DNA of 64,000 bases from Dioscorea cayenensis subsp. rotundata (lineage: Eukaryota > Streptophyta > Magnoliopsida > Dioscoreales > Dioscoreaceae), in contig NC_052478.1 of NCBI RefSeq assembly GCF_009730915.1, positions 10,649,552 through 10,713,551 of the forward strand, written 5' to 3'. Each line of letters opens with the position of its first letter. Within the stretch, counting starts at the first letter, position 1. Made by a program: the position numbers and the translations under genes. Under the pieces are notes generated by a model. The model did no database searches. It was not told where the DNA came from and was given only the letters and a program-made list of their open reading frames with translations. Shown one piece after another: positions 5,091 to 50,639 of the stretch.

Positions 5091-6237
5091 TTAGTATATT
5101 ACTTATTAAACAATGATTTTTATTTAGGATGAGTACTCATTATTTTTATTGGGCTTTGTAGAAGAAAAGGAATCAGCTAACAATGTCCGGTGTTTTCAAT
5201 TATGTTGATGTATTTACAAAGTATAAAAATAAAAAATAAAAATATCTTGCTTTTAATTATTATAAAAAAAATTATTATTTTTCTAAGTTTAAATTTTTTA
5301 AATCTATTAAATTATTGTTAGATAATTTTTTAAAAAAATCCATAGTTCAAAGTTTATTATATGATAAAATTTAAAATAAAAGATACAAATACAAACTTCA
5401 CCGTCATAGTTCTTCACTCATTAATTTTAAATTTAGAAAAAAAAAAATTAGAATATTATTTTTTTATTTAACAAAATTACTTTATTTTGTCATTTTCCAT
5501 TCTTCCCATATGACAATCCAGAATATTTTCTAGTCCCTCTATTTTTTAAAGAGATTATTTTTAATCCTCCTCCTTAGATATGTTATCTTTTGTGAATTCC
5601 AAGAAACATCCTTTCTAAACCCACCTTTTTAATAATAATAATAATAATTGTTAGGGAAAATAAATTATAAAGGCATGTTTGGTTCGTTTAAGTGGGGACT
5701 GAAGTGGCTAAAGTGGGGTTGAAATAAGGACTGAGGTGGAAATTAGACTTACAAATCTCTCCCCACTTTACCCATTTCACTTCAGCCATTTTAAAGCCGA
5801 GGTTGCACTTCGGTGAAATTCAATACACCCACTTTAACCTAACTTCCACCACATGATATCACGTGGGTAGCATCCGATCACCACTTCCCCCATCCCCCTT
5901 CCTCTCCTCCCGATGCACTAGGGTTTCCTTACTTCTATCGCCCCCTTTGGACTTTCGACACTCTCTTCAGCAAGATCTTGGTCTTGCTAGTGGTATCCTT
6001 GTTGAAACACCTTCTCCCTGTCGTTCATCATCTCTTTTTCCCGTTGTGGTTGAGCCGAAGTGCATCTCTGTAAGAATTTGGTCTTTTTCTCCGTCGACTC
6101 GTTGCCATGGTGTGCGATGTGGGTGCTATTTCTTCAATGATCGGTGTGCGATGTGCATGCTATTTCTACAAGATTTCCCCTTGATCTGATGAGATTTTCA
6201 CACCAAATTTGTTGTTTTCTTCTTGGTGTCAACGGGT

Positions 6238-6752
6238 TTCTTGAAATTTTTTTCATAGTATTCTTAATTTGGTTTTCCTACTAGTTCTTGTAGTGATTTT
6301 ATAATTTTCATATGTATTGTTCATCATGGGTTTAGATCTTCATTCTTACTTGTCAACCTTCTTCATCACTTTCAGTTTGATTTGTTTAGTTTTATTATTA
6401 TTTTTTTTTTCATCAAATTTTTCGCATATGTTTCATGGTCTGCAGAGTTTCTTGAAGATTTTTTTCAATGTATTCTTAATTTCGTTTTCCTCCTAGATTT
6501 TGTAGTGATTTCTTAATTTTCATATATGTTGTTTATAGTGGGTTCATATCTTCATTCTTACTTGTCAACCTTCTTCATTACTTTGAGTATGATTTGTTTA
6601 GTTTTATTTCCTTTGTTATTTACCTCTTCTTGCATGATTTTTCTCGGCAGGTTTCTTCAGGTTTTTTCAAGGTTATTTTTAATTTGGTTTTTCTCCTACC
6701 TTGTGTTATGATCTAGCAATTTTAATATATGTTGTTTGTAGTGTGTTCAGAT
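6238..6752. repeat. three diverged tandem copies inside the Harbinger element
   Basis: Copy 1 (about 6238-6400), copy 2 (about 6449-6612) and a partial copy 3 (about 6650-6752) share the order: TTTCTTGAAG-like start, 'attcttaattt.gttttcctcct', 'gtagtgatt', 'tcatatatgttgtt'. The period is about 205-210 bases. Lies in non-coding T-rich DNA upstream of the transposase remnant. Confidence 0.65.
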
Positions 6753-6856
6753 GTTAGTATACTTTCAATTTTCATGTTACATCTATGATGTTGTTTTATC
6801 ACTATTCTAGTTCATGTTCTTCTAATGGTTTTGATTCATGTTGTTGGTACTACATC

Positions 6857-7188
6857 TGTTGTATGCTTTATGTATTTTACCATTGCTTAGGTTATCATGT
6901 TATTATGGACATGTTATGCTTCTATTATGCACACTCACTTTTTTATTAGGTCTTTAAAGTATTCAGTTGTTTATATGATGATATAGAGCTCATGTTATTT
7001 TATTGTGATTCTAATTGATGTCCTTCAACTGATTTTGATCTATGTTGTTGGTACCGCATCTGTTGTATGCTTTATGTATTTTACCAATGCTTAGGTTATC
7101 ATGTTATTATGGACATGTTATGTTTCTATTACGCACACTTACTTTGTGATTAGATTTTTAAAGCATTCAGTTGTCTATGTAATGATAG
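6857..7188. repeat. tandem duplication of about 185 bp inside the Harbinger element
   Basis: A block starting 'ttgttggtac' and running through 'catctgttgtatgctttatg', 'ttaggttatcatg' and 'ttattatggacatgttatg' occurs at about 6860-7000 and again at about 7044-7188 with few differences. No coding potential seen. Confidence 0.75.
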
Positions 7189-8100
7189 AGGGTTGAGTTC
7201 TTGATGTCGTTTACTTTAATACTTCTTTAACTGCTTATGATCTAAAAATGGTTATAGCATTGTTATATTCTACCTTTTCCTTTCCTTATTTTTTGGTTTG
7301 TTTTAACCATGTCTTTATGCATTACCTTTGGTGGATTTTCATTCTATTTATAAATGCATGATGTGCAAATACTCTCCTATTGTCTATTTGCTAATGTTGT
7401 TGACTAATTGTTGTGTGATCATAGAATACTTATTTTCTACCATTGTTTGAGTTATCATTTCCTTATGTAAAGATTATGTGATAATTATGTACACTTATTT
7501 GTGATTATGTTTTTACGGCATCCATTGGTTTTATCTGGTGATAGGATTGTCAAGTTCATTCTTGCTTTTGGTTTTGTTTTAACCATGTCAAACAGTGCAG
7601 TTCTTATGGTGGTGTTAGCATTGTGTAGCTACTCTCTTTTATTTTTTTCTTTTCTAATGTTGATGATTAAAAAATTGTTGTACTTTATGGATTCCACCAT
7701 TGTTTAGGTTATCTTATTATTATAGAAATGTTATGTTCCTACTATGTCTACTTATTTTATGTTTATATTTATGTTACTAAATGTTTACTTAAATTCCTTA
7801 TTTCTTGCTTAGGATCACCATTCCTTTGTCTACTTATCTTACTTTATGGTAGAATCCTATAAGTCATACTATGTCTACTTATCTTACTATGTGTACTTAT
7901 TTTATGTTTATATTTATGTTACTTCATGTTACTTCATGTCATTAACTGATGTGTGCTTATAGGATGCCACCATGTGTGATTGTCATGTTATTATAAAAAT
8001 GTTATGTTCTTACTATGTCTAGTTATTGGTTTGAATTGCATACTATAATACAGTGAATTATTACATGTTCACCCATGTGTAGATTGATAGTTGGGCATTA

Positions 8101-9090
8101 GGTGAGCGTACGAGACCCCTCGTTGTGGCATTCACCACAGTCGCTATCATTATTGCTTTCATTATTGAAGAATTGCATACAACTAGGTCTTCAAGATGTG
8201 TTGAGGCATCAATGGTTTGGGATTTAACTAGGAGACAACATATGAGCCGCATACTAAGGAATGGCCAAGATTACTGTGTGAGTTACCTTAGAATCGATGT
8301 AGGACTTTTCATGTACTTGACGCAATTAATGTGTGATACACACCTGCTCGTGGATTCAAGACATGTGTCCATAGAGGAGCAACTTGCAATTTTTCTACAC
8401 ATTGTTGGCCATAACACGAAAAACAAAACAGTAAGGTTGGAATTTCTTCGATCGGGTGAAACTAGCAGTAGATATTTTAACAATGTCATTCACGCTATTT
8501 GTGAGATACGTGATGCTTTGTCATACCCCCTAATAGCAGTTGTGACCCAGACATAGAGAATAGCCCTAGCTGGTACCCATTTTTCAAATTAAGCAAAACT
8601 AAAATTAACTTAAGTATAAATATTTCAATTTTACATATTCAAATTTGAAGAATTCAATATTCGCTTCCAATGTAAGAATGCATTGGGTTGTTAGATGACA
8701 CGCATATTGATGCTTCTATTCCTCTCCACGAAGTGCCCCTATTTCGTGGCCGGAAAGGGCCTACACAGAATGTGTTGGCCGTTGTGAACCCCGATCTCAA
8801 GTTCACCTACATCTTAGCTGGATGGGAGGGATCTGTTAATAATTTCACCGTTTTAAGGGGTGCAATATCTTAGCTGGATGGGAGGGATCTGCAAATGATT
8901 ATTAATATTTTTTCATACCGGTATCTTGTAGGGAAATACTATCTAATTGATGCAAGGTACACCATTATGAATGGTTTCATAGCCCCGTATCATGGTGTTA
9001 GATACCATCTAAAGGAACATAGTGGGCTGACCACCACGTATAGATGTTGCATCCATGAGGTGCTTCAATTCCCATGTTCCCTATATTAAC
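8101..9090 (+). pseudogene. HARBI1-like (DDE_Tnp_4) transposase, degraded
   Basis: Three stretches of one transposase lie in order on the + strand. The first (8125-8556) resembles the N-terminal helical part of plant HARBI1-like nucleases. After a frame change it continues as DPDIENSPSWYPFFKL (about 8545-8597). The second (8670-8870) has LLDDTHIDASIP, FRGRKGPTQNVLA and YILAGWEGSVNN; the third (8925-9030) has GKYYLIDARYTIMNGFIAPY. Decay is visible: frameshifts, a stop after about 8870, and a 25-bp duplication (8811-8835 repeated at 8867-8891). The second catalytic Asp, usually in a G.xxHDS-type motif, reads Asn here (GSVNNFTVL). It is unlikely to be active. Confidence 0.8.
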
Positions 9091-10835: not shown

Positions 10836-11590
10836 GTCCCTAAAAATTTCAAAACATCCCAAATAGACTTTTTTGACATTTGAATTTGACATAGAGTTCC
10901 ATCCTTTTCTGACAGCTTACTTTTAAGTTAATGCAGCTCACTCCGTCAGTTTATTCAATCTTACAACATGTACTTCCTGCTTAAAATATATAGTTTTCAT
11001 TTAATATTTGCGTGTTTTTATGTAACCACATAAGTTTTCACTTAATATATAGTACCTTTTCGTTTAATATTTGATCTTTCCATTTAATATATGACATTTT
11101 CGTTTAATATTATGTATTTCCGCTTAAAAAACTGAAAGAAATTTCCGTCAACGTCAATTGCCTTTATGACCAAAAGACAGAAAAGTACACTGTCAGAAAA
11201 AGGAATAACTTCTTGTGAATACCTAAATTTGGCGGGACAATCTATGAATAAATAAAACCTGGATGAATTTTTAGGGCATTTCCAGTGATTGTTATTATAA
11301 TAATTATTATTATTATTTTAAAAAAATCATGTCCTTCCATAGCCACTGTGAAAGCATGCTACCACAGCTTTTGTAAATATGGCCTAAGCCACATAAACAA
11401 AGAAGCCTAGCTTCGCCACTATCTCCGGGATCTTGCCTCACCTCCTAAGTGATGCCATAAGTAGCTATTCCTTCTCCTCTCTGTTGAATTCTTATGGGAA
11501 GGCACTATTATCAAGGCCCATGATGAGTGTTTGACTATACAAATTTTTTCATTGCAAATTGATGCATTTAGCTTGTATTTTTTAATAAAT
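10836..11590. other. intergenic, short degenerate tandem repeat only
   Basis: No gene seen. From about 10980 to 11125 a unit of roughly 20-26 bases, containing 'ttttc.tttaatat', recurs five or six times with variation. The remainder is AT-rich spacer. Confidence 0.6.
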
Positions 11591-13021
11591 TAAGATTTTT
11601 TTTATTTAACTCATTTATTATTTGTGTTCAGGTCATAAATTATGTGCTTGTAGCAAAAAAAAATGAATTTGAAATAATTTTGAGTCAAATTGATCAAGTA
11701 TTGAGGCTCCAAGAGATAACATGGCATCAACATGGGCGTGCACTTTAGGAGGATATGAGACTGTAGAAAAATATGGTATTGTAGCATAACATCCAGAGGA
11801 TAACACGCCATGGCACACAACCCCAACATAGGGCCGTGTAACTTTACTCTCCCCTACGTAATTAAGGGTCAACCCCATGTTCTCCTCGAGAATTTTCTAG
11901 ATTTTGGTTCAAATTGGATTACACCGCCTGGTACATCCCCTGTGTAAGGCCGTATATGGACCTGATTCTTGGACTATAATAAGGTCGACACAAGGGTTTT
12001 TGAGCATCTTTTGGGGGGCAAGGGTTTTGGAAACAACTTAATGGTGTTTTCTAGGGATTTTTAGGAGAAAATTTGGCCTAATCTTCTTGGGGATTGAAAG
12101 CACCACCTAGAGGAGAGATCCTTGGTGGCTCTTCAAAGAATATACCCGCAACATTGTGTGAAGAAGATATAAAGCACAAGGGTGTTTTCTTAATCATGTC
12201 TTTGACAATTTGTATTTTCTTTTGATTGTATTCAGCACATTCTTTACATGAGGAACTAAACCTCCTAGTGGCTGTTTGGTTGGGGTAATATCACATTACC
12301 CCCGGAACGTGGACGGGATAATCTTATATTACCTCATATGGTTATATAGAGTGGGGATATTATATTCCTGAAATGTGATAACTTGCCAATATTAGTAGGA
12401 ATATAATTACCAACTCAATAGGTGGTTATCTGACATTCAAGGTGGAATGTGAATTTTTGTTCCTAATATACCCTTCAAATTCAATAAAATCTCAAAAATA
12501 TTAACTTTTTAAAAAATCCAAAAAATAAAATAAAATTGCCTTCTAAACCCTAGCCTTTAAACTTATCTTCCTTCTCTTAGAGCAAGTTTTGTTTAGATAA
12601 AGATAAAAATAATTTGAGATTAATTTTTTTCTCAAATATAAAGTTAAAGGAAAATTTATGCATATCTAAAATAAGTTTAACTTAATTAATATTAATAAAA
12701 TTAATTATATTAAGATTAAAATTTTAATTTTAATAATAATAAATATTTATTATTAAACAATTTTGATATTTACTTCATAATATTATGAACTTTGATGTAT
12801 ATAACATTTATTAGATAAGGGTATTTTAATAAAAAAAATAATTTGTAATAAAAAATTCCCCGAAAAATTCCCCGCTAACCAAACACGGTAATGTTACATT
12901 CCAACCACATTACTGTCTTTCCAATCAAACAAAAGTTGCACATATTCCCGTCAATATTACTTGGGAATCATATTCCCAGTAATCCTATTTCCAGTGGTAA
13001 TATACGATTCCATAACGAAAC

Positions 13022-15069
13022 TGTTAGTGCAACCGCACTATTTAAATTGGCATGATTTGACACCAAGGCAGATGACGTGGCAACCATGGTAACAAGGCAT
13101 AATTGATGACATGGAAAGTTTGGTGACATGGTAAGTAGACTTGGAGTGCAAGGCAAACATCTTGAAGATCTTGGTGGAGCCATTTTTAGTAAGTCTATAA
13201 CATGGAGGCAAATATCTTGAAGATCTTGGTGGTATTATTCTTGGTAACTTGTTCAACTTGAAGACAAGATCATATCAAGACCATACTTAGAGAGATGTGA
13301 TTGAAGACTAAATATGGTGGAGCTTATTTGAAGAATTATCTATTCATGGTATGAATGAAGGAGATATGATTTGAAGAATCCTTGATGAAGATTGATTGAA
13401 GTCTATTGAAGGCAAGATTTGAGGACCAAACTTGGGTGAATTGAAGATCAAGTTTGGAGAATCTTTGAAGACCAAATTTAGGTGGATTGAAGACCAAGTT
13501 TGGCAAGTTTCGTGAAGACGCACAATGACGTGCGCCCCTTGCGAGGGGACTGCGTGATGAGGAACCCGAGGAGGTAGGCTAGTTCTGGCGATCGGGATCG
13601 GGAGATTTGGGTCGCATCGACTCGGACTCAAGCATGACCGGGAGGTTGATGGGTCTTGAGGTCGTCCTGCAACGTAACCGTAACTCGCTCAAGTCGCGAT
13701 CGGGTGCCATGTTGCAATTCATGTTACAACAGGAGTTGCAACAGCTAATTTCGGCAGGTTTTTAAATTAGTAGCCGCGGAGATTCTAAAAGAGGTATGTG
13801 CTATATTTGGGACGTTGAGGCGTCTGTATAAGCTACCTTGCTCATAGATTGTAAGTGTGACTCTTGGGTGACTCTTGGAGGAGAGTGTGTGAGCACCAGA
13901 CAATCTAGAGAGGGTAATGAATTTTATTGTTGAGAGTGTGAGTGACAAGTGTTTGTACTCATCTATTTTTCAATGTTGTCAGACCCGGACCGGCCCGGCC
14001 GGTTCAACCGGAAAAATCGGGAACCGGCCATGTGGCCGGCCCGGGTATACCCCATTGACCCGGGTATTAAAAAACCCGGTGTTAACCCGGTGACCCGGGC
14101 GGTTCAACCGGGAACCGGTTGACCCGGCCGGGTCAATCGGATCACAATGTTTAATTTTTTTTTTACAATATTTAATCATTTATTATTATTTTCTCATTAA
14201 AAACCACAAAATCGTGTATATTTATTAATATTAATTTATAATTTATAATCAATAAATAGAATTACAATATATATATATATATATACCAACAAAAATTAAC
14301 ATTTAAAAAAATAAAAATATATTAATGTATTATGTAAATACTTTTCTAAAAAAATTTAATTTATTGAGAAAAATAAAACAATAAATGAGTGTAATTTTTA
14401 TTATAAAAAAATATAAAAATTAAAGTATTCTAATTAAATAAAAAAATATATGAAAAATTTAAAAACAAAAATAAAAAAACTCAATTGAGATATAAAAAAA
14501 GTAGTGAATTAAATTTCTTATTTATTTTTAACAAAATCAACCAATAAACAAATAAATAAATAAATAACACCGAGAGAAATTTGATAATTATATATTAATA
14601 TATTAAATTTGTAAATATTTAAAAAAATGTAAAAAAATAAATGACAAAAATTAGAAAACTCCCATCGTATATAAGGTCATTTATCAATTTAAATATCAAA
14701 TTTGAGTAGGTTTTTATAATATAATTATGGATTTAATATTATATTTGCTTATTATTAATTATTATAATATTTTTTTATATTTAATTATTGACCCGGTTCA
14801 ACCCCGGTTCGACCCGATTGAACCCATTGACCCCTGACCCCTGGGCTTAGCCGGGTCTAACAACCATGCTATTTTTACCTCTTTTAGTGGATTATTTATC
14901 TCCAAGCTTGGCCTCCCAGACGTAGGCGAGGTGACGCTGAACTGGGTTACCAACGTTGTGTGTCTCATTGTGTTTGTTTGTGTGTCTCCTTCTTTGTTGG
15001 TTTGTGTGAGACTTCTATGAGTACTTGAGTATTACATAATACCCACAAACCACACCTGAGAAACTAACA
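13022..15069 (+). mobile_element. solo LTR (Ty1/copia-like), split by a hAT element
   Basis: Begins TGTTAG and ends CTAACA (perfect 6-bp inverted termini with TG...CA) and is flanked by GAAAC on both sides (13017-13021 and 15070-15074), a 5-bp retroviral-type target duplication. There is a TATA-like motif near 13824. The 3' part (about 14880-14990) has the 'gtggattatttatctcc ... agacgtaggcgaggtg ... gaactgggttacc' layout common in plant copia LTR R-U5 regions. No internal gag/pol or second LTR follows, so it is a solo LTR left by recombination. Without the nested hAT element it is about 1.14 kb. A truncated inverted relative lies at about 19760-20989. Confidence 0.8.
13971..14868. mobile_element. 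hAT-type non-autonomous element (innermost layer)
   Basis: An 8-bp target duplication, CTATTTTT (13963-13970 and 14869-14876), flanks inverted termini CAATGTTGTCAGACCCGG and, from the right end, CATGGTTGTTAGACCCGG. Subterminal DNA is packed with CCGGTTCAACCGG and GACCCGG variants on the left (13980-14140) and right (14790-14860), while the centre is AT-rich and non-coding. 898 bp, no transposase. It sits within the solo LTR and is therefore younger than it. Same family as 21685-22470. Confidence 0.85.
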
Positions 15070-15545
15070 GAAACAATCCCCTAAGGTATTCGGATATTGA
15101 TGAACCCTGAGATGTAATTTTGTATTGGACATTGGATATTGGTTTATATTTGTGATTATTTTGGTTGTGACTCAATTGTGCTTTTTTATTGCAATGATTT
15201 CCATATAAGGAGAGTTTGATTTCATGCTTGATTCTTGTGTATGGGATTGAGAAATCATGATGCATATATATTTCACAATTCAAGGGAATTAAGCATATAT
15301 CTAGAAATAGAGGGGTTGTTCATTAACTTAAGAAAGGGATGAATATGACTTAGAAGCACCCATGGTCCAATCAACTCAAAAATAGCTTGATATCCTAGTT
15401 TAGAGCTGAACTAAACATCCTTGGGGGATACCGTGTCCGGATACCTTCCTTTTATGTTTGATAGAGTCTTTGTTAATTTAGCTTGTTTATTTTAGCTTTT
15501 GACTTATTTTTAATTTGTTTATCAATGTCACAATTAGTTATTACT

Positions 15546-15754
15546 AGTACTTCCTATCCCCCACCGTCGCCGGCCGACAACCCCTCTCTCACTTTTACTT
15601 CTCTCTCTTCTCTCTGCCCCCTGCCCCAGCCGACCCCCTCTCTCTCACCCTTTTACTATTCTATATATATATATATCTTTATTGGTTTTTTATTTTTAAT
15701 TTTTTAATTTTTTTAATGGCCGACCCTCTCCTGCCCTTTTACTTCTCTCTCTCT

Positions 15755-15812
<58 letters not shown>

Positions 15813-16766
15813 TATAGCTTTTTTAGTTTTATTTTTTAAATATCCCTTTTTTAGGGTTTTTATTTAATCTAAAAAACAAATCATTTTTACAAATTAATAC
15901 CTATAATCTAAAATATAATAATTTTTAAAAATATTTACAAAAATTATTATTTGATCTATTGATATGTTTATAAATAATTTTATATTTTTATGTAGTATAT
16001 TTTTTAAAATCTATATTTTATTTTTTACAAATGTTCTTTGTCAGAAAGGCGGGCGCGCAAGATTGGTTTTGGTTTTTTATAAATTAATTTATTTAATATA
16101 TAAAATTATATAATTAGTAAAATTTTTAAAAATTATTGTTTGAAACTTAACTTTTTAAACTAAACTATATATAACATAGGAATAAATTTAAAATTTATAA
16201 AAATTTTATTAATTGAATTTTATCTTTTATAATTCACCCCCTATCTTATAATTTCTGGCTTCGCCATTGCTTATAATCAACAATCTTGCATTCATACACA
16301 CTATTATTACTTAATATGACTTGTACACTTGCAGAAAATCACAAATCAGCTCAACAACATTTAAGCATGGTCTTCCTCTCCCCATCGCCAATCCACCAGA
16401 AAGTTCGACTGAGCACAATTTGCTTTTTCTCCAAGTCGTTGGGATTACTTTCAGATCATCACCCTCAAAATGCTTACTCACCTTATTTAGCAACACTAAC
16501 TAGGGTTTTTGAAATTTTTAATTATTATTTTATATAATTTTTTAAAAATGGGGATTATTTGCGTAAATCATGCAAATAATCAATATTCTTATTTTTAACA
16601 AAATTGTCAAGTTAATTATTAACCACGAATTTATTAGAACAATTACCAATTTAACAATAGCATTAATGTTTCGTTGGGCAAGCTTATTAAAAACATGTTA
16701 CATAATAATAATTAAAAAATTTCAGATTTAGTTCTTAAAATATTAAATTGTGAAATTGGTTCAACC
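15546..16766. other. intergenic, pyrimidine-rich and AT-rich repeats
   Basis: No gene seen. Contains CT-rich low-complexity DNA (about 15590-15795), AT-rich spacer, and a 'tttctggcttcgccattg' stretch (about 16252) that resembles the terminus of a plant hAT element without a partner. The small open frames at 15483-15707 and 16286-16537 are not supported. Confidence 0.6.
15741..15808. repeat. (CT)n followed by (TA)n microsatellite
   Basis: A compound simple repeat: CT units with a few CCT interruptions, then alternating TA. Confidence 0.9.
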
Positions 16767-17643
16767 GAGGCCCGGCCCTAGGCATAGTCTACCAAGGGCT
16801 ATGCCTAGGGCCCCACAATTTTGCAGAGCCCCATATATTTTATTTTATTTTTAATTATATTTAATATTTTTATATATTATTTTATCTGCATAATTATAAT
16901 TTTAAAAATTCTAATTCTTTTCTGAACTATAAAACATAATTTATGATATATCAATATCCAATAAATTTGGTGTTATAATAAGACCCAAATTTTTTTTAAA
17001 GTACCATAATTCATTTTTAATGTTATATTTAAAATTTTCAATTACTATTATCTTATAATATAATTATAATCTTGAACATTTTAAGTGTTTACGAAACTAT
17101 AAAACTTAATTTATAATAATATCACTATGCAATAAATTTGGTCTTAGCCCCGTAATTTTCTAGGACCCCATAATTCAAATTTTTTTTCAAAAGAATTAAA
17201 AGAATTATATTTAAAATTTTCAATTACTATTATCTTATACACATAATTATAATCTTAAAATTTTAAATATTTTTTAAAACACAATACTTAATTTATGATA
17301 ATTTCAATATGAAATAAATTTGATCTTATAATGGCCCCATAATTTTTAGGCCTTACAATTCATTTTTTTAAATTATATTTTAGATTTTTATTTACTATTA
17401 TATATTATTATCATATATGGATGATATTATGTTATTGTTATCACTCGGTCTTTTGATGCATTGTAAGTAATATATAAATGATTAAAAAAATCCCATATCT
17501 ACTTTTTTTATCAATATTTTATTTTATTGTAATTATTAATAATGATGTATATTTTTATTTTTATAATGTATTTATTATTTAATAAAAACATTTAAAAAAA
17601 AATTATCATGCTTAGAGTCTCGTTATCACTAAGACCGGCTCCC
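16767..17643. mobile_element. hAT-like non-autonomous element with internal tandem repeats
   Basis: Flanked by GTTCAACC (16759-16766) and GTTCCACC (17644-17651), an 8-bp duplication with one difference. Termini are GAGGCCCGGCCCTAG and, from the right end, GGGAGCCGGTCTTAG (10 of 15 match). The interior has about three diverged units of roughly 180 bp; for example 'caattactattatcttata' recurs near 17038 and 17219. No coding sequence. The terminal match is imperfect, so this is an old copy. Confidence 0.6.
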
Positions 17644-18039: not shown

Positions 18040-19060
18040 GGAGCAATCTAAATTTGCATTCACTTGGCGTTGACAATGTGCAAGAAATGGAGCCAAGTAC
18101 AAGTTTTAATGATGATCACCAAATTTGCATTCACTTGGCATTGACAATGTGCAAGAAATGGAGCCAAGTACAAGTTTTAATGATGATCAGGAAAAGGAGC
18201 AATCTAAATTTGCATTCACTTGCCATTGACATGTGCAGGAAATGGAGTCAACTAATGTCGTTATCTAAGTGTGTGTACACGTTTGGATGATGTAGACGAA
18301 AAGGAGCACTCTAAATTTGCATTCACTTGCCATTGACCATGTGTAAGAAAATGAGTCAATTAGACCATGGGCAGAGTCAAACCAAGTTAGCTGAATTTAT
18401 AATTAATAAAATTTAAGCTTACCCAAAACTCAGTCTAACTCGATAATATAGGGTTAATTTTTGTCAGAATACGTCCGTATTTTATGACCTTCAACCAAGG
18501 TCGCCCAAACCTGCCCAAATAAGTTTTTTTATCAAATAATAAATAAGTTATAAAAAAAATTAACAATAATATTAATCTGTGAACTCCACAGAATATTATT
18601 CTATAAAACACATTAAAATTAGAATACCAAATATACTATTCAGTCACAACATCTAAAATTCAAACCATTATGGCTAATGACAATCAACAATAATCAATAA
18701 TCAGGCCAAGTAGACCAACTATTCATATTTAATCAATTCAAAATAGTAGCCAATGCCTTAAATTTACACATACAATATATTAATATTTGAATTATATATA
18801 TATAAGTATATATATATAACTAATTAATAAATATATTATATAATTTGGACCGGTCCTAGGCCCGGCCCCGGGCTTTAATAATAACATCCAAACCCGACCT
18901 GTTTTTAAAATAGGTTCTATATTTTATTCAAGGCCTAGTCATCGGGCTTTGTATATTTGTCCAAACCCTCCCAATTTTCAGGCCGCCCTTCGGATTTAAG
19001 CGAGTAGCCCAACCCTTGAACTGGTCTAGAGTCAATTAATGTCTCTTTATCTAAGTTTTT
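18040..19060. repeat. tandem-repeat array of four diverged units, last unit split by a hAT element
   Basis: Units start with 'aatttgcattcacttg.c.ttgac.atgtg' and begin near 18050, 18122, 18208 and 18312. Units 1 and 2 continue through 'aagaaatggagccaagtac'; units 3 and 4 continue with 'gagtcaa.taatgtc...tatctaag'. Unit 4 is interrupted after GAGTCAAT by the element at 18361-19028 and resumes at 19037 with 'taatgtctctttatctaag'. A 91-codon open frame (18015-18290) simply follows the repeat and is not convincing as a gene. Confidence 0.8.
18361..19028. mobile_element. hAT-type non-autonomous element inside the tandem array
   Basis: Perfect 8-bp target duplication GAGTCAAT (18353-18360 and 19029-19036). 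Inverted termini are TAGACCATGGGCAG on the left and TAGACCAGTTCAAGGG from the right end. 668 bp, non-coding, with a GC-rich right part (18840-19020) full of 'ggcccgg' and 'gggcttt' words. The TAG... start and 8-bp duplication fit the Ac/Ds-like hAT class. The family differs from the CCGGTTCAACCGG type at 13971 and 21685. Confidence 0.85.
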
Positions 19061-43872: not shown

Positions 43873-45385
43873 CCGAAATGGGCTCAAGAGTGTTGTCAAT
43901 GGGCCGCGGACTCGAGTTATATCTCAAAATTCTCCAATAAAAAAAAATAAAATTTTCAAAGAATTTACCTATTAAATGAAGTTAACTATATAAATTATAT
44001 TAAATAGAATAAATATCCAAATAAACCCTACTAAATAAATGGTACTTTCAGTTAAAAAATAACAAACATTTTTATAATAATACTAATAATACACATTTTA
44101 AATTATATATCTAGAGAAAAAAAAATTTAGGGAAAATTATTTTTAAGTCCCTGAAACTTTTTAAACTTCCTCCAAGGTCCTTCTGATAAAACTAAAGTCC
44201 CCGTCCGTCCTTCCTTTATAGTTTTTGTACTCGTTCGTCCCTTCCGTCACCCCAAGCTGTGATATTTTTGTTTAATCCCAAAAGTACCCTTGAAAAAGTT
44301 TGGAGGGAATAATGGTGCCAAGTCAAATCACAACATGGCTATTGTACTGCAAACTTGCTTTGGAAGTTGCATTCTTCTTCTACTCGTATCTTGATGAAGA
44401 AGCTGGTGTTCTGGTCCATATTGTTTCCATTCTTGAGCCTCTTCATGTAAAGAACCAATTCTATCTTAGATTCGTCGTCTCCGTCTCCCCGATCAGGAGA
44501 AGCTATCCGAGTCTAGACGTTACAGCAGTGCAAGGATCTCATCTTGAGCATCACCGTATGTTAACGATATCATCTACCTAGAGATTTTTGTTCATATTAT
44601 TATCTTATTTTTTTATCAACCACCATGTTCGGGAAGGTGGCGAGTTTATGACCAAAGGTTTTTTTGTTTTATTCTTTGTAGTGGCTTAATGGACATGTTT
44701 TTACTTTTATTGTAGAAATATAAAGGGAGAGGGTTGTGTGTTAGATTTAACCATCTTGAGTGGGTGGGGAATTATTATTGGAAGAAATATATACGTATTG
44801 GCACCTTCAAGCTTCATCGATCAAAGTTAAGTATATAATTTCGGATGAGCGAGAAGGCGAGTGGCTTCCATTAGTTCGAAGATGACTTCAAACAATGTGC
44901 AACATTCACGGGTTATTCAAAAATAAAGCGTGGTTGATATGTTGGTAGAGGCGTGGATATTAACACGAGAAGACAACTCCGGGTCATCGAGACCATCGTA
45001 AATATCATATATCTTTTTATTCTTTCATTTTTTTGTAAATCTACGCTTCGCGATAGATGTTGTCCTTCTATTCGATTTTAATGGTATACACATGTGATAC
45101 GATGATTGTTATCTTTGGTTTTTTTGCGCATTAAAAACATTTTCATATTTATTCACTTTAGATTGTAGTTAGTTTTTCGGTTTTTGTAGTTTAGATTTTT
45201 TTCTTTTCTGTTAAGATTTTGGTAGTAAGAATTCAATTTCTACGGGTGTTTCGTTTATTTATTGAACTAACAACTTACTTTTTTTCTAACATACTAGGGA
45301 AACATTGTCAATGCTACCGCCAGTTTTACATTGAGGACCTTTAACAATAAGTAATCCGATAAGAGATTCAGAAGCTGAGTTTACT

Positions 45386-47426
45386 ATGATTGGTCATCGT
45401 TTTGAAAATGCGAAAGACTTTAAGGATGCATTGTGTGACTTAGCCGTCAAACGCAATTTCAACTTTCGGTTCATAAAGAACGATAAAGATAGAGTGACTG
45501 TGACGTGTGCTGATGAAGATTGTCAATGGCATGTTCATGCCTCAAGAGACGGAAACCTTCCTACATTTAGGATTAAAACATCACAACATGAACACACATG
45601 CGGTGGGGGCATCAACACACCATTTCACCCGAGAGCATCAAAGAAATGGGTTAGTAGGAAGGTAGTAATGAAATTACGTGATCGGCCTCTGTACCGAGCA
45701 GTGGATATACAACGAGATATATTACGTGACCATGGTGTTCGTCTGCCGTATAAACAAGCCTGGATGGGTAAAGGGTTAGCAAAGGGAATTCTTCATGGCA
45801 GTGATATAGCAAGCTATGATCTGTTGGTATGGTATGCAGCAAAAGTTTCTAAAACGAACCCAGGTAGCGTCGTTATTATTGACACTGATGGAGAACGATT
45901 CAAGCGTGGGTTTTTCTGTTTTCATGCTTCTCTTGATGGTTTCAAGCGGGGTTGTAGGCCTATGCTTTTTCTAGATGGAACTCACTTGTTGGGCAAATAT
46001 GGCGGTATCCTTCTTGGTGCAACAGCCAAAGATGGAAATGAAGGATTTTTTTATTTGGCGTTTGCTATCGTGGATAATGAAACTGATGATAACTGGACAT
46101 GGTTTACATCAACTTTGGGTGATGCAATATACGGTGATGACGACTACACCAACATAATCACATTCATCTCGGATCGGTCTAAAGGACTTGTAAATGCCAT
46201 TGCGAAGGTTTTTCCTTTATCCCCGCATGCTTATTGCTTGCGACATCTACATGCAAATTTTCTTAAATCAAATGGGCAGCTAGGAAAGTCATTAAAAGAT
46301 GAGTGCTGGAGTTTGATTATGAAGATTGCATATGCATGTACGTCTTTCGAATATGATGAAGCTGTACGCTCCCTATTGGCCACATCAGGACAAGCACACC
46401 ATTGGATGTTCCAGAAATCGGACATGTCACATTGGTGTAATTACTTGTTTAGAGGCCAGCGGTGGGGTGTGAAATGTACTCCAATGTCGCGGAATCTTTT
46501 AATGCATGGATAAGAGAAGCATGACACCTTCCGGTGTGTAAGATGGTAGATGCAATAAGGTGGTACCCATAATAGAATGCAAAGTTGTTACATGTTTTCC
46601 CGTATTCATGTTTTTTTCAACCATTTGCTTTTAATATTGTTCTTTACTGTTCTGATTTCGCTTAATCTATTTACTATTAGAGGTTTGAGTTATGTATTTT
46701 ATATTTCCCTTTCGTTTATCACGTTACTGTTTAGTATTAGTAGTTGGTGTTTACAAATTATGCAATGTGTTTTACAGTTTGTACTTGCATTATTATCCTT
46801 AAATCCTGTTATATTTTACATTTACTATCGTAATGGTATGCTCCATGGTGCAATTGATACAACCTATGTTCATGTTGTTAGGTTTAAGATGATGAACATG
46901 ATGTACAACCGACATAATTGTTACTTGAAATGGGAATCTTATCTTTACCCTGTGATACACAAGAAGATTGAAGTGATAGTCGAAGAAAGTAGGTGCTACG
47001 GATAGGGTTGTTCGAGACGAAGAATAGTTCGAGGTTGTTGACCACCGGAGTAATCTACGTTAATTTGTGTGCTCGAACATGCTCTTATCGCTTGCTGGCG
47101 AGTTTTACGGAATACCATATAAGCATGCTTGCGAGCGATTATACTAGCCGATACAAATGTCCATCAGCTCGTTTGAACCATACTACATCGTCGAGATCCT
47201 ACAAGTTGACATACAAAGAATCGATATTCCACATGCGGATCATGATAAACCGTTGGATGACTCTCGCCAACTCCGTATTCGACCACCTATCTCAAAGAAA
47301 AGGCCTGGTCGTCCGAGGCGCAAGCGGATTGAGTCACAAGCATGGCATGTGCGTGAAATACATTGTTGTCGTTGCCACTCAATCGGACATAATAGGGCAA
47401 CATGTAATGATGTAATCGCAGACTAA
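45386..47426 (+). pseudogene. MURA-type MULE transposase, frameshifted
   Basis: A 375-codon open frame has an N-terminal C/H zinc-binding region (CADEDCQWHVHAS ... HEHTC), then the MULE catalytic core: FLDGTHLLGKYGG with the first Asp, TFISDRSKGL with the second, and CLRHLHANF. Near 46465 a one-base shift breaks the frame: the next frame continues GEMYSNVAESFNAWIREA (about 46470-46512), which holds the expected catalytic Glu, then meets a stop. Further on, 46993-47426 holds a SWIM-like remnant (ARTCSYRLLASF; a conserved Cys reads Tyr) and a C-terminal CCHC knuckle (CCRCHSIGHNRATC) next to an AT-hook-like RPGRPRRKR. It can no longer make a full transposase. Confidence 0.85.
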
Positions 47427-48021: not shown

Positions 48022-49861
48022 TCATTTTTCTTGGTGGCTTTGTGGTGGCGCATCATCCATTTTTTCCCCATCCTCTGTACTTGCCTCTGACGCTTGCGTA
48101 GGCGATGCTAATTGGGGTGTGTTTAGGTGTAATGCCATCGGCAAGATGCGTGCGGCATACTCTTGTCGCGAGATGGGCAACATCCCGAATGGGCTACTGC
48201 TGAGTTCCTCGCCATGCAAAAGCTGTTCCATGAAGTCCATCAAGTATGCTTTGGACAATCGACAGCATCCTCCCTCTGCGTGGGCGATCACGAACATGGG
48301 TAAGGGTATACGATGCCGCCTCATTGACATTGAATTTTATCCGCAAAGCGATCTTCAAAGCGAGGGAGCGGCTGCAAAACACGAAAAGCGAGTTACAAAA
48401 AAGTACGGAAACTCAAAATGGGTATCAATATTACCATGGCATTTCTTTGCGTGATCATAAAAGCTGGACTACGAGACGGATGAATAATGAAAAATATGCC
48501 TTCTCGTCTTTGTCGAGTACAATAAGATGGTAATGTTTGTTCTAAAGCAACCCGGCGTGAGAACAAGTTTCACTCTGCCATAATCTTCTAAAGCTGGGGA
48601 CATCATTTTATCAAGACCATCAATCTGAATGCTTGCATTTGTGATGAGCAAGCGCCATGGGTCTACAAATTGTGGCGGTCTACTCGAACTCGTGGGGGAT
48701 TTCTTGAAAGAATCGAGTAACATAAGGGACGAACACATCGATCGCCTACTATCGTGACCTTTACATGCAGGGAGGGCTCCCCCTTCATTTCCCCATCTAA
48801 TTTCCTTCGCCTTGTCCTCACATACTTAGGTGCTTTTCATAGCATCGGATGTCTCTAAAACCATCAATGAGTTATTCCGTTGAACCTTTCCATATCCGAT
48901 CAGTTCAATTTCAGATTCTCTGTCGGCCATGAGTGGAACAAACTAGCAGAAGATAACAAACATCAACGAAAACATGTACATTAGAAATTAATACATAAAA
49001 TATCTTTGCATAAAATAAACATCTTATATAACATACTGAACTTTTATATAAATAAGTAAACAAGTTTGCCAAATTGTAAACAGATTGGTGTGAAACAACA
49101 TTACAATTGTAAATATTAATTTCATACCGATACTTATGAGTACTATATTGTAATATTAAAACCGAAATTAGAATATTCACGAGTACATGCTAAACTATGC
49201 ATACCTTCTTGCCCTCTAGTGAATCAATCAAGGCACTAACAGCAGCTTGTTTCTTGTAACTACCAACACCATAACAGAGAATGCGTGGTGTCCTTCCAAA
49301 GTGAATCTTCTTCCCGTTACCTGTGACTTCATAAAACCAAAAGATTAATGCCATAGTACAACCCCTTACATATCCTATCCTTGATTGCTTCCCGGCACAT
49401 TTCTCTTTCACACGAGCTGTTGCGAGAGGTACATCATCCATCATCCATTTATGTATAGCTTGTGCCCATGCGTACTGTCCTATTGTTGATAGATTGTCCA
49501 CATAGTAGGGTAACCATGCCGGTGACGAACATGAAGTTGTGGGGAAAAGGAAAAATCCTAGAATGTACACTAATGAAAGCTTCACAAAACTTTCTTCTTT
49601 CTTGCTTTCTCTTCTTACCACCATGTTCATTAATGACCTCACTAGGCAGTCCCTGTTTCGGTCTACTCCTTTACTGAAGTATTCCTTTTTCAAATCTGAG
49701 AATGTTCCTTTTTTTCCTTTTTGAAGTCGATAGCGAGTGCCATCACATTGTAATCCTAATATTAATGAAACATCTTGACCTTGAATTGCGAGAAAACTAT
49801 CCCCCAGAATGGAATGTGTTGCTCCTTTCATCAAACATCGCATTAATGCATCCAAAAACAT
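48022..49861 (-). pseudogene. Ulp1-like (C48 peptidase-type) transposon gene, degraded
   Basis: Minus-strand pieces in order: 49861-49190 (223 codons) carries the N-terminal domain that plant transposons place before Ulp1 (ILGLQCDG, YAWAQAIHKWMMDDVP, GYVRGCTMALIFWFYE); 48738-48469 has DPWRLLITN and TRRHIFHYSS, matching the strand around the Ulp1 His; 48330-48022 has MFVIAHAEGG and FMEQLLHGEE, matching the region after the catalytic Cys. The catalytic His-Trp pair reads differently (RTNITILLY) and the Asp-Cys-Gly before FVIA is absent, so no protease activity is expected. Ulp1 proteases remove SUMO from proteins; transposon-borne versions have unknown roles. Confidence 0.65.
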
Positions 49862-50639
49862 TGCGCTCTTGGACTATGGGCTCAATGTCCATGAGGGTGG
49901 TGAATGGTGTCCTTGAAGTATATCTCGATGCCTTCGTGTCATCATCTTCTTTAAGCGGTTGATGGTATCAACAAGCTGGTGCTAAATAACAACATCCATT
50001 CACGAGATTTCACGAATTGTCACCCATAATCTTCCTAATCACACAAACAAAACAAAAGCGGTCGGGGCGACATATACTTATTGAATAACGAAAGTCATAA
50101 CCCACTATATCTTTCCCCAAAACAATATAAATTGCCCATAATATCAACAACAACTCGCGGTCTGCAAGCAATTGTACATACAGTAATTGAGCAGAACAAC
50201 GAAATGTAAACAATAACTACGATAGTAATCCTATTCATAATAAAAAAATGCATGAATCCTAAATGTTAATGATCCATTCACATCTTCTTTGGTTCTAAAT
50301 GTTAATCATCCATTCATAATGCAACTAAAGAGATACAATCTTATCGGTAACATGATTGTTAGCGATTGAACATCAAATACATTTTGTAAATCACGGCCCT
50401 AAAATAAATTCCACATGTTGATATCAGCGTTATTAGAGATTCTGCGCACATAAGACATTTGTTTTCATGCATTCGTGCGGATTTGTTCATTATAACTGAA
50501 ATTAGGGCACAAACCTATTGTACAAACTAACTACATATTCAAATTTCATGTCTTCGTCAAGAGATTTCCAGGAATTTCATGGCTTATGAACAATGATAAT
50601 CCAATTTAACAAACGATAAACTATAAATGTAAGATAAGA

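Follow-up and report, generated by a model that had tools for sequence, protein, structure and literature searches.

Introduction

When the two LTRs of a full element recombine, a solo LTR is left; transposition itself leaves target duplications. In the PIF/Harbinger superfamily, which includes Tourist-like MITEs, the duplication is usually TTA or TAA. Elements of these kinds frequently end up inside one another, nested insertions being routine in plants. For wheat chromosome 3B, 30,199 reconstructed nested insertions are reported, with up to 8 layers (PMC4290129).

The yam locus described here is a clean but ordinary example of such a nest, and of no new kind. Set beside the wheat nests (PMC4290129), it is alike in having elements inserted within one another that can be reconstructed as nested clusters; it differs in being built of small elements and solo LTRs, in four layers with one side insertion. 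A literature search on yam transposons, judged by title and abstract start, returned nothing on the subject. The nest lies in a window of 64,000 nucleotides, C8:10649552-10713551, by which we mean the whole stretch of DNA that was analysed and to which all positions refer. Copies of its elements were sought in the genome, which comprises 584 Mb in 2249 contigs.

Results

Layout of the nest

The locus is almost certainly the product of independent transpositions: a containment stack in which an outer LTR holds a MITE, the MITE holds an inner LTR and the inner LTR holds a hAT-like element, plus a separate fifth insertion. Because each layer is contained in the one before it, the insertion order is outer LTR, MITE, inner LTR, hAT element, and the presence and absence of the four layers in paralogous copies elsewhere in this genome bear the order out. 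A preliminary description, made from the letters of the window, had already proposed four nested elements with a readable order, and that much stands: the MITE is absent from 17 of 17 outer-LTR copies, and the hAT element from 7 of 7 inner-LTR copies. The duplications that it named, CTA, GAAAC and CTATTTTT, and the termini TGTTAG/CTAACA are all present in the sequence as written. Its list of four elements was incomplete, the fifth insertion, at about 15560-16269, having been overlooked. The features are as follows, with the strand where one applies and the basis of each call in parentheses.

11516-11520: GCCCA, putative target duplication to the left of the outer LTR (sequence; ends placed with the help of sisters)
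11521-16348, plus strand: outer element, most plausibly an old solo LTR, TGATGAGTG...CACAAATCA (ends from sisters; dispersed family)
11521-12267, 15084-15559 and about 16270-16348, plus strand: pieces of the outer LTR (about 1.3 kb minus insertions)
12265-12267: left CTA duplication of the MITE (sequence)
12268-15080, plus strand: Tourist-like MITE, split into 12268-13021 and 15075-15080, together 760 bp (family copies)
13017-13021: left GAAAC duplication of the inner LTR, within the MITE terminal repeat (sequence)
13022-15069, plus strand: inner solo LTR, split into 13022-13970 and 14877-15069, together 1142 bp (7 near-complete relatives)
13963-13970: left CTATTTTT duplication of the hAT-like element (sequence)
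13971-14868, plus strand: non-autonomous hAT-like element, 898 bp, CAATGTTGTCAGACCCGG...CCGGGTCTAACAACCATG (sister copies)
14869-14876: right CTATTTTT duplication of the hAT-like element (sequence)
15070-15074: right GAAAC duplication of the inner LTR (sequence)
15081-15083: right CTA duplication of the MITE (sequence)
15560-16269: fifth insertion in the outer LTR, a dispersed repeat ending CTGGCTTCGCCATTG (breaks up the outer LTR when compared with sisters; own family)
16349-16353: GCTCA, putative target duplication to the right of the outer LTR (sequence; ends placed with the help of sisters)

Dispersed copies of each element, insertion-free paralogous sites, duplications and the containment order of layers 1 to 4 were all seen directly. 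The insertion-free sites are sites in paralogues, and part of each family was scored; for the hAT element, the MITE and the fifth insertion, alignment scores were compared with the maximum of a reversed-sequence null. When element-free layers are aligned to other genome copies, a comparison that the preliminary description had proposed, all the fetched copies cross the hAT and MITE sites without an insert, and 18 of 20 MITE copies align past the inner-LTR site under permissive scoring. The same description had named two outcomes contrary to nesting, LTR copies with the GACCCGG-rich segment as a native part and MITE copies without the claimed ends, and neither was seen in the examined copies. 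Other copies in the genome independently define where the hAT element and the inner LTR begin and end; for the MITE they do so more loosely. How often would matching flanks occur by chance? Over 2,000,000 random draws of position pairs in the window, identical 3-mers were met in 2.2%, identical 5-mers in 0.20% and identical 8-mers in 0.010%. Duplications of 5 and 8 bp are thus far above chance, and the 3-bp duplication is weak when taken alone.

The outermost layer

The outermost layer had been given the limits 11620 and 15545, which fall short by about 100 bp at the left end and by about 800 bp at the right. We dropped these limits because several sisters span the region from 11520/11521 to about 16348, continuing beyond 15545; homology to the sisters starts at 11520/11521 with TGATGAGTG (often TGATAAGTG in the sisters) and stops near 16348 with CACAAATCA. 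The search with 11300-12267 gave 41 candidates, of which 40 were scored; the 39 outside the window show 66-82% identity across the matched parts. Seventeen of these 39 were fetched for the empty-site comparison, and every one crosses the MITE site uninterrupted, with 0 or 1 extra base and a score above the null maximum.

The most plausible reading of this layer is a decayed solo LTR, of greater length than first supposed. Both family ends are present, and the flanking 5-mers, GCCCA and GCTCA, agree at 4 of 5 positions, a level that random window pairs reach in 2.4% of cases. The earlier claim that each layer has its own duplication is exact for CTA, GAAAC and CTATTTTT; the outer pair, at 4/5, would be a decayed one. 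Five outer sisters, with ends read by eye, give duplication matches of 5/5 (L064, TCAAA, and L073, TGTCT), 4/5 (L079 and L068) and 2/5 (L072).

Might the layer instead belong to something larger, either as a piece of a longer element or as one of the two LTRs of a full-length element that has degraded? We consider this unlikely, though it is the most serious of the alternatives. The imperfect duplication would fit such a reading, as would the weak alignments of one sister, L064 (64% and 60%), which extend past both outer ends, to 11315 and 16477. Both ends nevertheless agree with the family ends, and the solo form occurs with exact duplications in L064 itself and in L073; it was by L064's own exact duplication, despite its weak alignment running further, that the outer ends were placed. 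The flanks also argue against a larger element: the left flank, 11300-11519, had no other match among the 40 of 41 candidates scored, and the right flank, 16349-16760, had one weak 76-base match only. The latter result comes from a rerun on 16349-16760 alone, the first search of the right flank (40 of 186 candidates scored) having been swamped by a neighbouring repeat. The decayed solo LTR is the reading that we carry forward.

The MITE

For the MITE family, 40 of 435 first-look candidates were scored, and the 39 outside the window show 69-84% identity. Twenty copies were fetched, picked for matches reaching near both ends, and in 17 of them both ends, with GTTTGGTT-type terminal inverted repeats, were found; the right ends recognised in three of the 17 (L036, L045 and L048) are probably at the wrong internal place. 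The window MITE's own ends agree with each other at 10 of 14 positions. The GGGGTTGTTTGGTTGGGG-type ends, seen in the sisters, and the 3-bp duplication are like those of Tourist-like MITEs of the PIF/Harbinger superfamily and suggest that name, whereas the window copy is flanked by CTA rather than by TTA/TAA. Among the 20 sisters, five have a TTA, TAA, CTA or TAG 3-mer common to both ends when it is sought in a loose window.

Only 6 bp of the MITE lie beyond the site of the inner LTR, and for this reason a permissive alignment was the main test of that site. Under permissive scoring, with no null, the joined 3' end of the window MITE aligns past the site in 18 of 20 copies, and at least 3 of the 6 bases beyond it are aligned in 16 of 20. 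The first 12 bases of the inner LTR, sought in the same 20 loci, were found in none. Many sisters end in AACCAAACRACCCC, which corresponds to AACGAAACAATCCC in the window; the inner LTR therefore landed inside the MITE terminal repeat. At another locus, L021, 1501-2541, a MITE piece is followed about 150 bp further on by a 69% relative of the inner LTR, on the other strand.

The inner solo LTR

The termini TGTTAG and CTAACA are common to dispersed copies of the inner LTR, and in the window GAAAC stands directly beside both of them, with no internal region. The element is like other solo LTRs of plant LTR retrotransposons, which have a TG...CA-type LTR without an internal region and a 5-bp duplication; the difference is that here there are two different solo LTRs, one within the other via a MITE. 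All seven near-complete relatives found among the 40 scored of 3982 candidates for the full 3.9 kb query were fetched, and their K2P distances to the window copy are 0.076-0.104 (n=7). All seven cross the hAT site without any extra base and with scores above the null maximum; the exact CTATTTTT stands at the empty site in five, and L013 and L015 have variants of it.

Six of these relatives have two ends, L015 lacking the 3' part, and five of the six have the solo form with an exact 5-bp duplication (AGTCT, GTATA, AGGTG, CAAAG and CCTAC). The sixth, L012, has a polypurine-like tract before the LTR and no duplication, and therefore has the look of a 3' LTR belonging to a longer element. Such a tract also precedes the relative at L016, and a putative plant transposon protein domain, PF20167, adjoins L012 (47.2 bits; cut-off, 45).

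The hAT-like element

Among the 40 scored of the 3982 candidates, 32 are copies of the innermost element, at 90-96% identity. We examined ten sisters, seven of them the best-scoring (L002-L008) and three lying near LTR or MITE relatives (L016-L018); their K2P distances to the window copy are 0.022-0.067 (n=10). The 8-bp duplication, CTATTTTT in the window, is exact in eight of the ten sisters and matches at 7 of 8 letters in the other two. The short terminal inverted repeats start with CA (CAATGTTGTCAGACCCGG versus CATGGTTGTTAGACCCGG). Likeness to non-autonomous hAT elements, in these CA-starting terminal repeats and in the 8-bp duplications, points to the hAT superfamily. The window copy differs in a deletion of roughly 17 bp near the right end, beside a GCCGGGTC repeat; the missing bases are present in nine of the ten sisters, L017 alone sharing the deletion.

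Other members of the family also occur close to transposons. At L016, 1381-2281, a hAT copy lies inside another inner-LTR relative, in the opposite orientation and at a different place, with its own duplication GATTTGAC. At L017, 844-2240, the copy that shares the 17-bp deletion lies 50 bp from a MITE relative and has the duplication GTATTTAT, and at L018 a hAT copy is found near LTR relatives. One might think that the family prefers other transposons or their chromatin. We regard such a preference as quite improbable: L016-L018 were chosen for matching two layers, which makes their co-occurrence a selected sample, and the recurring proximity of hAT, LTR and MITE copies may equally reflect their abundance in repeat-rich regions.

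The fifth insertion

Sister outer LTRs pass 15559 straight into the sequence that the window resumes at about 16270. The junction is crossed without the intervening block, with scores above the null, in nine of the 17 outer copies, and the other eight are not above it; this 9/17 comes from stricter scoring with the reversed-sequence null, an earlier permissive figure of 17/17 having included wrong-strand alignments. The block belongs to a separate dispersed family; 40 of its 722 first-look candidates were scored.

What kind of element is it? The right end, CTGGCTTCGCCATTG, resembles the right end of several relatives and, we presume, hAT ends. No duplication or left terminus was found at the left border of the window copy, and 8-bp pairs with one mismatch were found only in the AT-rich interior or in the outer LTR. 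Two relatives do have 8-bp pairs: in L081 the pair matches at 7 of 8 positions, and in L090 it is exact (AATGATAC, followed by CAGGGGC). Given the lack of a left-border 8-bp duplication and of a matching left terminus, we withheld the hAT label from this block.

That the block is native to a longer form of the outer-LTR family, and no insertion at all, seems very improbable to us. The left end and the duplication that could not be fixed, and the eight uninformative outer copies, leave some room for this view; the nine copies that cross the place uninterrupted, above the null, and the separate dispersed family count against it. As an insertion, the block would postdate the outer LTR, and it may have arrived before or after the MITE, the inner LTR and the hAT element.

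Discussion

Do the segments travel together? The proposal that they are native parts of one composite repeat, mobile as a unit and with only apparent nesting, has next to no chance of being correct: pieces of two layers do lie near each other at four scored places (C8:15.98M, C2:0.88M, C3:17.28M and C1069), and L021 has its inner-LTR relative near a MITE piece, but the 40 scored of 3982 candidates for the full query consist of the window itself, 32 hAT copies and seven inner LTRs, so that 39 of 39 non-self candidates match a single layer; each match ends within a few bases of its layer's limits, and the L016 hAT copy, with its different LTR position, opposite orientation and own duplication, sits apart from any such unit.

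With independent insertions as the preferred reading, what steps would account for the nest? In the path that we propose, an LTR retrotransposon entered low-copy DNA and presumably recombined down to the solo LTR at 11521-16348. A Tourist-like MITE then entered this LTR at CTA, and a second LTR retrotransposon entered the MITE, 6 bp from its end, at GAAAC, to be reduced, presumably by recombination, to a solo LTR in its turn. A non-autonomous hAT element entered the second LTR at CTATTTTT. Separately, another DNA-transposon-like repeat entered the outer LTR at about 15560-16269. Recombination between LTRs is the presumed origin of both solo LTRs.

The distances to sister copies agree in part with the containment order, being smallest for the hAT element, bigger for the inner LTR and biggest for the MITE and the outer LTR. 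Divergence from sisters is a rough guide to age only, and because the identity ranges of the MITE (69-84%) and the outer LTR (66-82%) overlap, it gives no order for these two.

At least five insertions are readable here in less than 5 kb, which makes the locus a teaching case and a useful control for automatic repeat annotation, in which such stacks tend to be broken up. Each level is also a potential presence/absence marker for related accessions. The nest leaves our understanding of transposons unchanged.

Other features of the window

Neither the Rfam scan nor the tRNA scan of the window gave a hit. Several open frames lie outside the nest. The frame at 8083-8556 has no Pfam match and looks to us like part of a Harbinger transposase, which is an assumption on our part. 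A second, at 49190-49873, matches DUF1985 and a plant mobile domain, both below the curated cut-offs, and a third, at 45335-46513, contains MuDR and MULE transposase domains.

Other repeats are also found. Near-tandem duplications of about 195-199 nt occur at 6220-6626 and 6788-7190, with 81% and 86% identity, respectively. From 16761-17000 onward starts a repeat of roughly 150-200 bp that has many dispersed copies, often several in tandem. At 18050-18383 a 71-nt unit is repeated, two adjacent copies being 96% identical and a third 69%.
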